The notes beneath the pieces were generated by a model. It was given only the letters and a program-made list of their open reading frames with translations, did not search any database and was not told the origin of the DNA. This document shows positions 2,241-20,680 of a DNA stretch of 20,680 bases, piece by piece. Source of the stretch: a virus; IMG/VR virus record IMGVR_UViG_3300020171_000149, positions 1 through 20,680 of that record, one strand, 5' to 3'. The first letter of the stretch is position 1. The number at the start of each line of letters is the position of its first letter. The translations under genes were made by a program, and so were the position numbers.

Positions 2241-2387
2241 TTAAGTTAATCTTTTATTAAATTTATCAACTCTTTTAGAGCGTTTTTTTCTTAATTCTTT
2301 TTCTCTTAGTTCTTTCATTCCTTCTTCTATCTCTCTTGCTACAGAGCGTCTACCAAACTTTGATTTCTTTTTAAACTTTTTAAGCAT
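2241..2387 (-). CDS. Small, very basic protein between TerL and portal
   Basis: A 48-residue ORF, MLKKFKKKSKFGRRSV... to ...KFNKRLT, overlapping the end of the TerL gene by 8 nt and ending 17 nt before the portal start. It fills the only gap between the two large genes, and its overlapping start fits the style of this operon. It is about 45 percent Lys/Arg with an alternating Lys/Glu helical centre, so nucleic-acid or terminase/portal contact is possible but unproven. No family is recognised. Confidence 0.6.
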   Translation of the reverse strand: MLKKFKKKSKFGRRSVAREIEEGMKELREKELRKKRSKRVDKFNKRLT

Positions 2388-3681
2388 AACGATTGTCTTG
2401 ATTCTTTAAGCGATTGTATTGTTTTCTATAAAACTCTGATTCACTTCTCTCTGTGAAGTCGTTTGTCATATTTTCCCAGACAAGAGAACAATATCTGTGT
2501 ATATCTGCTTTATGATTAGTCCAATCGTGGTAAGGTTCTTCAATAAACATTCCTCTTTTTTCATCCCAGCGTTGTCTGTATTGACTAATAGCGTCAAGCC
2601 AGAAAGAGCAGTTACCTGTGTCAACCCATAATCTATTAAATAAAAGCCTTCCTTGTTCTATGCCGTGTCCAACTCTCATACTAGGAACGACTTCAAAATC
2701 TATTCCTAAGTCTTTTGCTGTGTCTAATTTTGTTTTACCAGTTCCTTGTTCTGTGTGATTTATATCGTGAGGTGCAAAGTGTTTTCCGTAAAGGTAAGGT
2801 CGTTCTTGTAGTATCTTTATAGCCTGTGGTAAACCGTCTTTGTTGCTTCCTTCCCAGTAATCAATCATTCTTACTTCATTGCCTGTTGCTTGATAGAATC
2901 CTATTGCTAGGTTGCTTCCTACGCCTAAATCCCAGACTGTATGTACTGCTAATTGCTCGTCATAAGGAACTACTTTAAATCTACCTGATCTATGTAATTC
3001 TCCTATCTGTCTAGCGTAGTAAGCTCCTTTTATGGAAGATTCAAAGCTACAATACCATTCTTGTTCAAACTCATCTTCGCTCATTGTGTTTCTTGCTTGC
3101 TCAAGCTCTTTAGGGTCAATTAAACCAGTGTCATCTACTGTTAATTTAAGTGAAAGCCAATCTTCTTTTTGTAGTCCTTCGTTATATAATCTATGAAACT
3201 CGTTTTTTCCTTTTGGTGTTCCAATCCAGATAGCGTAACCTTTGTGGTCTGCTAAAGCTGGTCTAATAATTTCTGAAAAGATATTGCTAGGTTGTTGACT
3301 ATATTCGTCAAAGATTACTCCCCATAATCCTATACCACGAAGAGAGTCTGGATTGTCTGCACCGTATAATGTTATTCTACTACCATTTTTAAAATCTGCT
3401 CTTAGTTCTGATTCATTAAACTTTACGCCATCTATTTTACCAGCGTATTCTTTTAAAATATCCCAAGCAACATTTTTACTCTGCTTGTAGGTTGGAGCTA
3501 TATAAGCAAATTTTGTCTTTTTGTTTTGTACTGCATCTCTGATAAGATGATTCAGGCAAGCTACTGTTTTTCCACTTCTTCTATGTGCAACTACTACCTT
3601 CCACCTTAGTTTACTCTCGTGAAGTATCTTAGTCCAAATCCTCGGAGTGTAAATTATTATCTTTGTAGTTTCCCCAGTCAT
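2380..3681 (-). CDS. terL: Terminase large subunit (packaging ATPase-nuclease)
   Basis: A 433-residue protein that would drive ATP-dependent DNA packaging and cut the concatemer. In order: Walker A VAHRRSGKT (about 31-39), Walker B GVIFDE with the catalytic Glu (about 121-126), a coupling motif IWIGTPKG (about 151-158), then an RNase H-like nuclease domain with acidic residues in VWDLG (Asp251), APHD (about 303-306) and HKADIHRY (about 390-397). Length matches compact TerL proteins. Its start lies inside the end of the upstream terS gene (53-nt overlap), implying translational coupling. It acts at the portal vertex with TerS. Nothing is missing, so it should be active. Confidence 0.96.
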   Translation of the reverse strand: MTGETTKIIIYTPRIWTKILHESKLRWKVVVAHRRSGKTVACLNHLIRDAVQNKKTKFAYIAPTYKQSKNVAWDILKEYAGKIDGVKFNESELRADFKNGSRITLYGADNPDSLRGIGLWGVIFDEYSQQPSNIFSEIIRPALADHKGYAIWIGTPKGKNEFHRLYNEGLQKEDWLSLKLTVDDTGLIDPKELEQARNTMSEDEFEQEWYCSFESSIKGAYYARQIGELHRSGRFKVVPYDEQLAVHTVWDLGVGSNLAIGFYQATGNEVRMIDYWEGSNKDGLPQAIKILQERPYLYGKHFAPHDINHTEQGTGKTKLDTAKDLGIDFEVVPSMRVGHGIEQGRLLFNRLWVDTGNCSFWLDAISQYRQRWDEKRGMFIEEPYHDWTNHKADIHRYCSLVWENMTNDFTERSESEFYRKQYNRLKNQDNRYA

Positions 3682-12166: not shown

Positions 12167-13243
12167 ATGACAACAGAACTAACATTAGTAGATAAAATAA
12201 CAAAAGAGATTGGTTTACCAATTACAGATGCAGAAAAAATCGTAGCCTCATTTAGCAAAGTTGCCAAATCAGTAAAAGAGTGGGAAAAAAAATTAAGTGA
12301 ATTTAATAAAGAACAAAAAGAAGAAATTACAAAAGAAATATGTCAACAAGCAAGAGAATTGAGAATAGAGGGTAAAAATATAAGAATAGACGCTGATAAA
12401 AAGCACAAAGAATTAAAAGAATATTCGTTGCTAACAGGCAGAGCGATTGATGGGGTCAAAAATTTATACAAACTAAAAATATCAGAGCGTGAAGACAAAT
12501 TGGAAAAAATAGAAAAACATTTTGAAATGGTTGAACAAGCGAAAAAAGATAAATTAAATGCAGAACGAGAATTATTACTTAGTAAATACGTTATAGATGT
12601 TTCAATGTATAATTATAAAGAAATGACTGACGAAGTTTTTTCAAACTTGATAGAAACTGTAAAAAAAATTTGGGAAACAGAACAGGAAGCTATAAAACAA
12701 GCTGAATTAGATAGAATTGCAAAAGAACAAGCAGAAAAAGAAGAACAAGAACGTATACGAGTTGAAAATGAGAAATTAAAAAAAGAAGCTGAAGCACGAG
12801 AGAAAGAGCTTGAAAAAGAACGTGCCGAACAAAAAAAGAAATTAGAAGCAGAGCAAGCTAAGGCTAAAAAAGAAGCTGAAGCACGAGAGAAAGAGCTTGA
12901 AAAAGAACGTGCCGAACAAAAAAAGAAATTAGAAGCAGAGCAAGCTAAGGCTAAAAAAGAAGCTGAAGCACGAGAGAAACTTGAAGCGGAAATTAGAGCA
13001 AAAAAAGATGAAGAAGAAAGATTAAGAAAAGAAGAAGAATTGCGTTTAGCAAAAGAAAAAGCAGATAAAATGGAAGCCGAAAAACAAGCACAGTTAGCAC
13101 CTGATAAAGATAAGTTAAAGCTGTATGCAAAAGCATTGAGCGAAGTGGAAATCCCTGAATTACAGACTGAGGATGCTAAAAATACATTACGAGAAGCATC
13201 AAAATTATTAAATCAAGTTTTATTAATATTAAGAATAAAATAA
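12167..13243 (+). CDS. Long coiled-coil protein between exonuclease and SSB
   Basis: A 358-residue protein. The N-terminal about 140 residues are helical (LVDKITKEIGLPITDAEKIV, ARELRIEGKNIRIDADKKHK); residues about 180-310 are an uninterrupted Glu/Lys/Ala coiled coil. The N-terminal half resembles coiled-coil phage proteins found beside recombinases and SSBs (DUF1351-like), from memory only. The coiled coil contains an exact 29-residue tandem repeat (see 12785-12979). Its position, where many phages carry a RecT/Erf annealing protein, suggests a role in the recombination complex. No catalytic motif is seen. Confidence 0.75.
   Translation: MTTELTLVDKITKEIGLPITDAEKIVASFSKVAKSVKEWEKKLSEFNKEQKEEITKEICQQARELRIEGKNIRIDADKKHKELKEYSLLTGRAIDGVKNLYKLKISEREDKLEKIEKHFEMVEQAKKDKLNAERELLLSKYVIDVSMYNYKEMTDEVFSNLIETVKKIWETEQEAIKQAELDRIAKEQAEKEEQERIRVENEKLKKEAEAREKELEKERAEQKKKLEAEQAKAKKEAEAREKELEKERAEQKKKLEAEQAKAKKEAEAREKLEAEIRAKKDEEERLRKEEELRLAKEKADKMEAEKQAQLAPDKDKLKLYAKALSEVEIPELQTEDAKNTLREASKLLNQVLLILRIK
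12785..12979 (+). repeat. 87-bp in-frame tandem repeat in the coiled coil
   Basis: Two consecutive 87-bp units starting at 12785 and 12872 appear identical; a third partial copy of about 21 nt starts at 12959. The unit encodes 29 residues beginning EAEAREKELEKERAEQKKKL. Identity at the DNA level points to recent duplication by slippage or unequal recombination. 29 is not a multiple of 7, so it shifts the heptad phase by one. Confidence 0.85.
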
Positions 13244-15472: not shown

Positions 15473-15573
15473 CCCAGTAATACTAACTGGGACAGACGGA
15501 TTGTAAGTGCTGTCCTCTAGCGAGTTGAGAATACGAGTCAACTAGCGTCAATCCGTCTATCTTAGTTAGTATT
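15473..15573 (+). ncRNA. Structured element with two competing folds
   Basis: Local fold: hairpin CCCAGT/ACTGGG (15473-15478/15486-15491), and GGACAG/CTGTCC (15490-15495/15510-15515). Long-range fold: AATACTAACT (15479-15488) with AGTTAGTATT (15564-15573) and AGACGGATTG (15494-15503) with CAATCCGTCT (15549-15558), two perfect 10-bp stems. An inner hairpin AGTTGA/TCAACT (15523-15528/15538-15543) fits either. It lies between genes and has no U-tract. The 20518-20678 element has the same order: CCCAG hairpin, long stem, then TTAGTTA. Confidence 0.65.
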
Positions 15574-15581
15574 AAATAACC

Positions 15582-15592
15582 CCCTAACAGGG
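15582..15592 (+). promoter_or_regulatory. Start-proximal stem-loop before 15610
   Basis: CCCT pairs with AGGG around aac, ending 17 nt before the ATG. The following gagtaataaataaata recurs before 16407 and 16605, so this leader exists in three copies. Confidence 0.6.
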
Positions 15593-15609
15593 AGTAATAA
15601 ATAAATAAT

Positions 15610-15762
15610 ATGTTATTAGATAATCGAGACAAAATAAATGAATTACTAAACGATATAATTGGTATATCAGACAAATCTTTATATCCTTTTAATGAAGATG
15701 ATAATGATAGGCTAGAAATGATAAATGAGAGAGCCAAAGAACTTGATAAATTATTAACTTAA
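15610..15762 (+). CDS. Small acidic protein
   Basis: A 50-residue ORF, MLLDNRDKINELLNDIIGIS..., acidic and helical, ending RAKELDKLLT. The start is supported by the repeated leader. The opposite strand also has an open frame here, rejected because of the leader and operon direction. Function unknown. Confidence 0.55.
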   Translation: MLLDNRDKINELLNDIIGISDKSLYPFNEDDNDRLEMINERAKELDKLLT

Positions 15763-16371: not shown

Positions 16372-16380
16372 TTAAATAAT

Positions 16381-16391
16381 CCCTAACAGGG
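16381..16391 (+). promoter_or_regulatory. Start-proximal stem-loop before 16407
   Basis: CCCT pairs with AGGG around aac, ending 15 nt before the ATG. It has the same leader type as 15582-15609, with the spacer gagtaaataaataat. Confidence 0.6.
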
Positions 16392-16406
16392 GAGTAAATA
16401 AATAAT

Positions 16407-16568
16407 ATGAAAATAGAACTTGATTTACCAAAACCAACACCTACAAAAGAATACTTTTCATTGAGGAAAAAAGTTACTCAAGAGGCAATTAAAAGACATA
16501 AACCAACTAATTGGCAAAACTACTCAATACACTACGAGGGAAATATATTGCGCATTGAGCAAGAATAA
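16407..16568 (+). CDS. Small protein of unknown function
   Basis: A 53-residue ORF, MKIELDLPKPTPTKEYFSLR... to ...GNILRIEQE, slightly basic, with a strand-helix-strand feel. Leader and start are of the repeated type. No family recognised. Confidence 0.55.
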   Translation: MKIELDLPKPTPTKEYFSLRKKVTQEAIKRHKPTNWQNYSIHYEGNILRIEQE

Positions 16569-16573
16569 ATAAC

Positions 16574-16588
16574 CCCCTACTAATGGGG
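16574..16588 (+). promoter_or_regulatory. Start-proximal stem-loop before 16605
   Basis: CCCC pairs with GGGG around a 7-nt loop, ending 16 nt before the ATG. It is the third copy of the leader type at 15582 and 16381. The loop differs while the stem pairing is kept. Confidence 0.6.
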
Positions 16589-16604
16589 AGTAATAAATAA
16601 ATAT

Positions 16605-18698: not shown

Positions 18699-19709
18699 AT
18701 GCAACACTTCAAATCACTTGCGGACAAGGAAGTCCCTAAAAAATACAACGCAGAATTAAAAAAGTTTCGTGACTATGCTACTAAGATTGGTGTAGATAAA
18801 GATGCTCCAGTTTGTTATGAAGTAAAAGCTGGGTACAATATCAAAAAACACACCCCTTTGTCTGGTAATTGCTATGAAGATTTTAAGTATCTGCAAGACT
18901 GGGAATTTGAAGATGAAACAAAAAATAGTTTAGTTTTCTGGATACCAAAAATACTGCCTGATAGTTTTAACAAAAATGTAAAAGAGCAAAAAGAATTGAT
19001 AAAAGATTTCAGTGATGATTTTGGCAGTGTATCATTATTAACTGGATTGATACTACATCATTTTGAAACTACGAAAGAGAGATTGTGCGATAATGAATAT
19101 ATTAGAACAAGTTCCTGCCTCCGTGTCGGTGGTTTTCGCCTCAGCCTCGGTGACTTTGGACGAGGTGGTCTGCGCTGCGGCGGCTGGCTTTGGGGCGACG
19201 ACGGCTCCGACTCTCTTGGTTGCTTCGCCTGGGGGGTTGTTCCACTGGAAACTTGTAAACCTGATAATAAGCCATCACAAAAACAATTAGCAGAAGCGAT
19301 TAAATACCTAGCAGACGGATTAAAAATTACCAAAATCTTAGACCGTTCTGTAGGAATAAATCTAATCCTAAACGAACCAGAAAAAGACCACGAATGTGAA
19401 GAAGATATTTATGGTAATTGTTATACTTGTGAAAGAAGTATGTTAGAAGAACCATCCGAAAAAGAAGAGTGGGGAGCGTGGAAAATTGTTAGAGATATGC
19501 TAGACAATCCAGACGACCTTGGTATCTACCAAACAAGCAAATGTTATCAAGAGCTTTATGAATTCGTAATGAATCAGAAACAAAAAGCACGAGAGGAAAC
19601 ACGAGATACTCCTATGGGGTATTCCACTATGGGGTATTCCGCTTGGCTTACCGCAGGCGAGAAATTCGGCTACTTAGATTTCTTTCAAGAGCAGTTGAAA
19701 AATAACTAA
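18699..19709 (+). CDS. Protein with mid-chain hypervariable-looking insert (candidate DGR target)
   Basis: A 336-residue protein in three parts. Residues 1 to about 138 are ordinary AT-rich coding sequence (e.g. EFEDETKNSLVFWIPKILPD). Residues about 139-182 are an abrupt Gly/Trp/Asp/Arg-rich insert (LRVGGFRLSLGDFGRGGLRC, then WLWGDDGSDSLGCFAWGVVP). The rest is again ordinary, with a possible Cys motif (CEEDIYGNCYTC). The insert has the spacing of the C-type-lectin-like variable domains diversified by DGRs, where Asn codons of a template become random. The open frame is intact across the insert. The gene is among small non-structural genes, not next to tail genes, so the binding target is unclear. 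Confidence 0.7.
   Translation: MQHFKSLADKEVPKKYNAELKKFRDYATKIGVDKDAPVCYEVKAGYNIKKHTPLSGNCYEDFKYLQDWEFEDETKNSLVFWIPKILPDSFNKNVKEQKELIKDFSDDFGSVSLLTGLILHHFETTKERLCDNEYIRTSSCLRVGGFRLSLGDFGRGGLRCGGWLWGDDGSDSLGCFAWGVVPLETCKPDNKPSQKQLAEAIKYLADGLKITKILDRSVGINLILNEPEKDHECEEDIYGNCYTCERSMLEEPSEKEEWGAWKIVRDMLDNPDDLGIYQTSKCYQELYEFVMNQKQKAREETRDTPMGYSTMGYSAWLTAGEKFGYLDFFQEQLKNN
19113..19244 (+). other. Adenine-poor variable-region-like segment
   Basis: By my count 8 of 132 bases are A, in a gene that is otherwise about 40 percent A, and 36 of 44 codons end in C or T. Codons such as CGC, CTC, AGC, GGC, GAC, TGC and TTT are what results when the first two bases of AAC or AAT codons are randomised, which is how DGRs write variable regions. 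The matching A-rich template repeat and the reverse transcriptase are not in the window. Confidence 0.6.
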
Positions 19710-20513: not shown

Positions 20514-20517
20514 TTAT

Positions 20518-20678
20518 CTCCCAGCTTAATCAACTGGGAGGGTGCAAGCAGTGAGGGCTTCGGCTCTCCTCCACGCCAAGTACGTACGGATAGATAGTTG
20601 CCACATCCCGAAATGAGATGTAGGAGTAACTGTCGTCAAGCAAAGCAGGTAGCTGTTTGCACCCTCTTAGTTAATTAT
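20518..20678 (+). ncRNA. Large structured element at the right end
   Basis: A 5' hairpin CTCCCAG/CTGGGAG (20518-20524/20534-20540); a 14-bp closing stem GAGGGTGCAAGCAG/CTGTTTGCACCCTC (20538-20551/20653-20666, one G-U); hairpin GAGGGC/GCTCTC with a TTCG tetraloop (20553-20568); GATAGTT/AACTGTC (20593-20599/20628-20634, one G-U) enclosing ACATC/GATGT (20603-20607/20617-20621). The first hairpin loop is partly complementary to AGTTAATTA at the end. It is GC-rich against AT-rich flanks and has no ORF. The closing stem ends 14 nt before the window edge, so a start codon may lie just beyond. Confidence 0.65.
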
Positions 20679-20680
20679 AT

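Follow-up and report, generated by a model that had tools for sequence, protein, structure and literature searches.

Described DGR targets and the present locus

The targets of viral diversity-generating retroelements (DGRs) are, in several clades, predominantly tail proteins (PMC8144416). The tentaclins carry the variable region (VR) in mid-protein, where an N-terminal lectin domain is followed by Ig-like domains (PMC10743442). Target genes without a local reverse transcriptase (RT) are present in Nanoarchaeota and were interpreted either as fossils or as genes that are diversified from a distance (PMC4372165). According to an RT-anchored survey of DGRs, remote targets escape it (PMC8144416).

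The window analyzed here comprised an entire virus record (20,680 bases), which was linear and probably a fragment. Related records were up to 40 kb long, the best of them having a terminase that was 50-60% identical, hence perhaps half of such a genome was missing here. The ORF list contained a 336-aa candidate DGR variable protein at 18,699-19,709 on the plus strand, and a candidate VR, an A-depleted patch, was located within it at 19,111-19,243 (plus strand). It was concluded that this patch is, or was, probably a DGR variable region. The conclusion is unproven, since neither an RT, nor a template, nor a relative of the whole protein is in hand. The ORF was filed as a DGR target that looks RT-less and has an unusual architecture, not as a new system.

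The ORF was similar to the VGG-type phage variable proteins (L063, L039, L076 and L060; Mtd of Bordetella phage BPP-1, L028) in its A-depleted patch, which is of about 110-130 nt in those proteins, and in its C/T-ending codons, the in-frame R-V-G-G start, and W.W and G-C later. However, in the VGG-type loci no more than 10 residues separate the patch from the stop codon, a template and an RT lie next to the gene, and the gene is of tail type; none of this was seen here. A mid-protein VR with a further part behind it was shared with the tentaclins and with loci L059, L090, L113 and L130. In the tentaclins Ig-like domains stand behind the lectin domain, whereas none were detected here, and the record fragment had no RT. 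The partial DGR targets of Nanoarchaeota (PMC4372165) and the archaeal variable proteins of L126 and L144 were similar as orphans without tail or membrane features, and some targets there also have no local RT. Unlike them, the present ORF was located on a tailed-phage contig, its patch was not C-terminal and the L126-family profile failed. A kinship with that archaeal family (L.C...DD.S.S.LG..FA) had appeared strong on inspection and in an alignment of three sequences, and was rejected when the profile test gave −1.0 bits, which was equaled by 1204 of 1998 shuffles.

L126 (positions 410-2643 of a virus-collection contig) and L144 (a contig of an archaeal MAG) each had a pair of small variable proteins encoded side by side, neither of which showed tail or membrane features. 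In L126 a single template repeat beside a DGR-type RT served both proteins.

Composition of the patch, its calibration and the template searches

Change-point analysis set the limits of the patch at 19,111-19,243 with a log-likelihood ratio of 37.7 nats; A made up 5% of the patch (7 of 133 nt) and 39% of the remaining gene. The first-pass annotation had reported C/T-ending codons in 36 of 44 positions and 8 A in 132 bases between A-rich flanks; both counts were confirmed by a recount of codons 139-182 (19,113-19,244). The abrupt switch, previously placed at residues of about 139-182, was real, and the sharp 133-nt patch was slightly offset from these limits. The fraction of T remained steady, being 0.29 in the patch and 0.29 and 0.24 in the flanks. 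The depletion was specific to A, as the change-point statistics of the ORF for C, G and T were equal to 7.0, 3.7 and 3.8, respectively.

No other 132-nt stretch of the record was as poor in A as the patch region, where the minimum was 7 A, and the next separate stretch contained 15 A. Random draws of 44 codons from the other genes of the window reached neither the C/T-ending count nor the A count of the patch (0 of 200,000). Contiguous 44-codon windows in those genes had at most 30 C/T-ending codons and at least 30 A, and none was like the patch.

The residues K, E, Q and M were absent from positions 139-181, compared to 28% elsewhere in the protein (p ~1e-6 under independence). Both this absence and the C/T third positions supported the earlier proposal that the residues fit randomized AAY codons. 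The proposal does not hold for the codons TGG (three), CTG, GGG, GGA and CGA of the patch, which cannot be derived from AAY codons and thus would be template constants under the DGR reading.

A detector of repeat pairs that differ at A of one copy was used for calibration, and recovered such a pair in each of ten phage DGR control loci, including Bordetella phage BPP-1 and crAssphage LMMB. Viral contigs were scanned with a DNA motif of DGR-type RTs (A/T favored at degenerate positions), which resulted in 101 loci; a template/variable pair was present in 65 of the first 80 loci and in 81 overall. In the known VRs, A made up 6-21% of the bases, the T fraction was 0.20-0.49 and the median share of C/T-ending codons was 77%; the corresponding values of the patch were 5%, 0.29 and 80%, its A content being slightly under that of every calibrated VR (lowest 6%). 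The first and second positions of its C/T-ending codons resembled those of known VRs, being rich in G, then T and C, with little A. Template adenines were retained at known loci to 27-82%; considering this and the 5% A of the patch, the template would need to be A-poor or very thoroughly mutated.

An A-depletion score placed the ORF at the top of 945 ORFs with 37.5, and the runner-up (32.0) was a confirmed VR. The other ORFs with scores of at least 17 were 17 detector-confirmed VRs, two annotated controls and two RT-bearing loci (L078 and L042) with typical VR motifs, for which the template was not found. The best-scoring ordinary (non-VR) ORF reached 16.1 in this calibration set. As the set was DGR-enriched by design, the ranking measures how specific the score is against about 870 ordinary ORFs and says nothing of prevalence.

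Further, the patch was compared with the 81 templates using an A-aware score, in which a template A may face any base. The best was the template repeat of L063, where CATGTCGGTGGTAACTTCAACAACAACGGTAACTGTGGAC aligned in the same reading frame with CGTGTCGGTGGTTTTCGCCTCAGCCTCGGTGACTTTGGAC at 19,122-19,161 (plus strand; R-V-G-G core) with a score of 23.1. This score was matched by 6 of 1000 codon-shuffled patches over all 81 templates, and the next best place in the window gave 17.5. The best local protein match among the variable proteins was also to the L063 locus (0 of 100 shuffles). This resemblance lends modest support to the DGR reading, without proving homology. L063 was not the cognate template, because some mismatches fell at non-A positions. 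The ORF was not matched by a profile built from 39 VGG-type variable proteins.

No RVT_1 match was obtained in the 20,680-base record, itself a fragment, by a search that was positive for four of four DGR records, and no RT was found in the terminase relatives. The A-difference detector yielded no template repeat within the record fragment, and two degenerate template patterns had zero matches in the viral contig collection. A hairpin just 3' of the VR is known in some DGRs; here, no inverted repeat of at least 6 was present in 19,090-19,340 except a palindrome at 19,096. The original assignment as a DGR target was partly supported, by the calibrated composition and the in-frame L063 resemblance, but not by an RT or a template within the record fragment.

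Gene order and protein architecture

The large terminase gene (2380-3681, minus strand; Pfam Terminase_6N, E 9.9e-17) marked the structural side, and it was located together with a gene for a portal-like protein on the minus strand in the left part of the record. Rightwards from about 5.8 kb, genes for a DnaB-like helicase, a NinG/Rap-like nuclease, a YqaJ recombinase and a methyltransferase were followed by small ORFs. The ORF at 18,699-19,709 was situated among these on the replication side, with its transcription directed away from the terminase and portal genes, and the neighboring small ORFs 3' of the replication genes showed no structural matches. The record ended about 1 kb downstream. 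This gene order favors an accessory, non-virion role, but a tail module could begin just past the contig end. It agreed with the first-pass assignment to an early or accessory gene and was the sole support for it.

Several other elements were observed in the window. A strongly predicted hairpin element occupied the contig end at 20,514-20,680 (arms 20,527-20,551 and 20,653-20,677, z −4.7), and no Rfam family was matched even with E up to 1. The motif TAAATAATATG or its one-mismatch form had 16 occurrences where 2.2 were expected, on both strands and for the most part at the starts of genes, when a Shine-Dalgarno-like motif was found at only 2 of the 25 gene starts inspected in the window. Together, these two observations suggest a host in which translation may be initiated without Shine-Dalgarno sites. 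An 87-nt in-frame tandem repeat (12,779-12,979; two identical copies followed by the beginning of a third) was located in a coiled-coil-like ORF at 12,167-13,243, and an intergenic element like TAAATAACCCCCTAACAGGGAGTAATAAATAAATAT was present in three copies at 15,573-15,611, 16,373-16,411 and 16,566-16,604.

Neither Pfam nor PHROG offered a family for the ORF at 18,699-19,709. Searches of phages, plasmids and viral contigs yielded no relative that matched the whole protein and no second copy of the gene. The N-terminal part (18,699-19,110, plus strand) was A-rich and belonged to no known family according to the family and homologue searches. About 155 residues followed the patch, which therefore was not C-terminal. 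Among the known VRs, 71 of 81 ended at most 10 residues before the stop codon and four, those of L059, L090, L113 and L130, were in mid-protein with more than 300 residues behind. The mid-protein position had been taken as the mark of a different kind of target; the position itself was correct, but precedents were provided by the tentaclins (PMC10743442) and by these 4 of the 81 VRs.

A segment of the C-terminal part, residues 260-296 (19,476-19,586, plus strand), was shared with a free-standing 96-aa protein of another virus contig (L146, 9950-10,240). The identity was 41-44% (E 1.6e-6 at 41%), and tblastn among candidate stretches gave E 3e-7. The small L146 protein adjoins metabolic genes. 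As the segment recurs in a free-standing protein, the C-terminal part has the appearance of a phage domain in its own right. A 15-nt tandem duplication was also observed in it at 19,612-19,640 (CTATGGGGTATTCC twice), resulting in MGYSTMGYS. Pfam scans of the protein parts revealed no structural family, Ig-like domain or DUF6273 domain in the patch flanks. Single-sequence AlphaFold models had pLDDT values of 42 and 48, and strands were present over the patch in both, at a confidence too low to trust.

Proposed mechanism and alternative explanations

We proposed a mechanism in which an RT would copy an A-rich template RNA and misread its adenines. The mutated cDNA would then replace the patch, so that about 30-35 codons would be re-randomized with the remaining protein kept constant. 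The RT and the template would be located either in the part of the phage genome that was not sequenced or in the host. The patch would form the binding surface of a C-type-lectin-like module, and the C-terminal part may be a separate phage domain that was fused behind a once C-terminal variable region. The protein might be active in the infected cell and not in the virion, which was the least certain step; an intracellular role was proposed because the gene lies on the replication side. In its full form, the proposal is that a DGR of a tailed phage, its own or that of the host acting in trans, diversifies the middle of an early or accessory protein that is not part of the virion, against an intracellular partner. 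We regard this full form as tentative and rather unlikely. The partner could be, for instance, a varying host defense or regulatory protein instead of a surface receptor.

The ORF may instead encode an ordinary DGR-diversified receptor-binding protein of the virion, the tail or host-recognition module extending from the right end of the record onward. This was judged equally unlikely. It is consistent with the prevalence of tail proteins among viral DGR targets of several clades (PMC8144416), with the closest template, that of L063, being of the common VGG type, and with the record stopping so shortly past the gene. However, the small neighbors downstream of the replication genes lack structural matches, the terminase and portal genes are located at the far end on the other strand, and neither flank of the patch matches a structural family. 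The recurrence of residues 260-296 in a small free-standing protein near metabolic genes also argues against a virion role.

A fossil was considered unlikely. Here the DGR diversification would belong to the past, the RT and the template would be lost and the gene would now be fixed, so that this sub-case differs from the DGR reading in present activity only. The lack of an RT or a template in this record and the related ones, as well as the interpretation of RT-less Nanoarchaeota targets as fossils or remotely diversified genes (PMC4372165), would agree with it. On the other hand, the A-depletion was sharper than at the calibrated RT-bearing loci, the frame was intact with no decay visible, and the missing part of the genome could carry the RT.

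It was judged quite improbable that no DGR is involved and that the patch is a Gly/Arg/Trp-rich motif with unusual codons, derived, for example, from recent GC-rich foreign DNA, an overlapping frame or RNA structure: although no RT, template or relatives were found and two other reading frames were also open across the patch, GC-rich foreign DNA would lose T too, when T was unchanged, the open frames were explained by the depletion, as no stop codon can be formed without A, RNA structure was not in excess over shuffles (z −0.09), as for known VRs, and a comparable A-specific patch was absent among the ~870 ordinary ORFs. Both an overlapping gene and RNA structure were thus rejected as the cause of the patch. 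The fossil, receptor-binding and intracellular readings overlap with the preferred one, that of a present or past DGR variable region, therefore the degrees of confidence given here do not sum to one.

If confirmed, the preferred reading would provide an example of a phage gene that is not part of the tail module, has its variable region in mid-chain and is diversified by a DGR. Base composition alone can flag targets that are remote from the RT and are missed by RT-anchored surveys (PMC8144416). In the calibration set, an A-depletion score of at least 17 split variable regions from ordinary ORFs, and such a score could be applied to RT-less contigs at scale.
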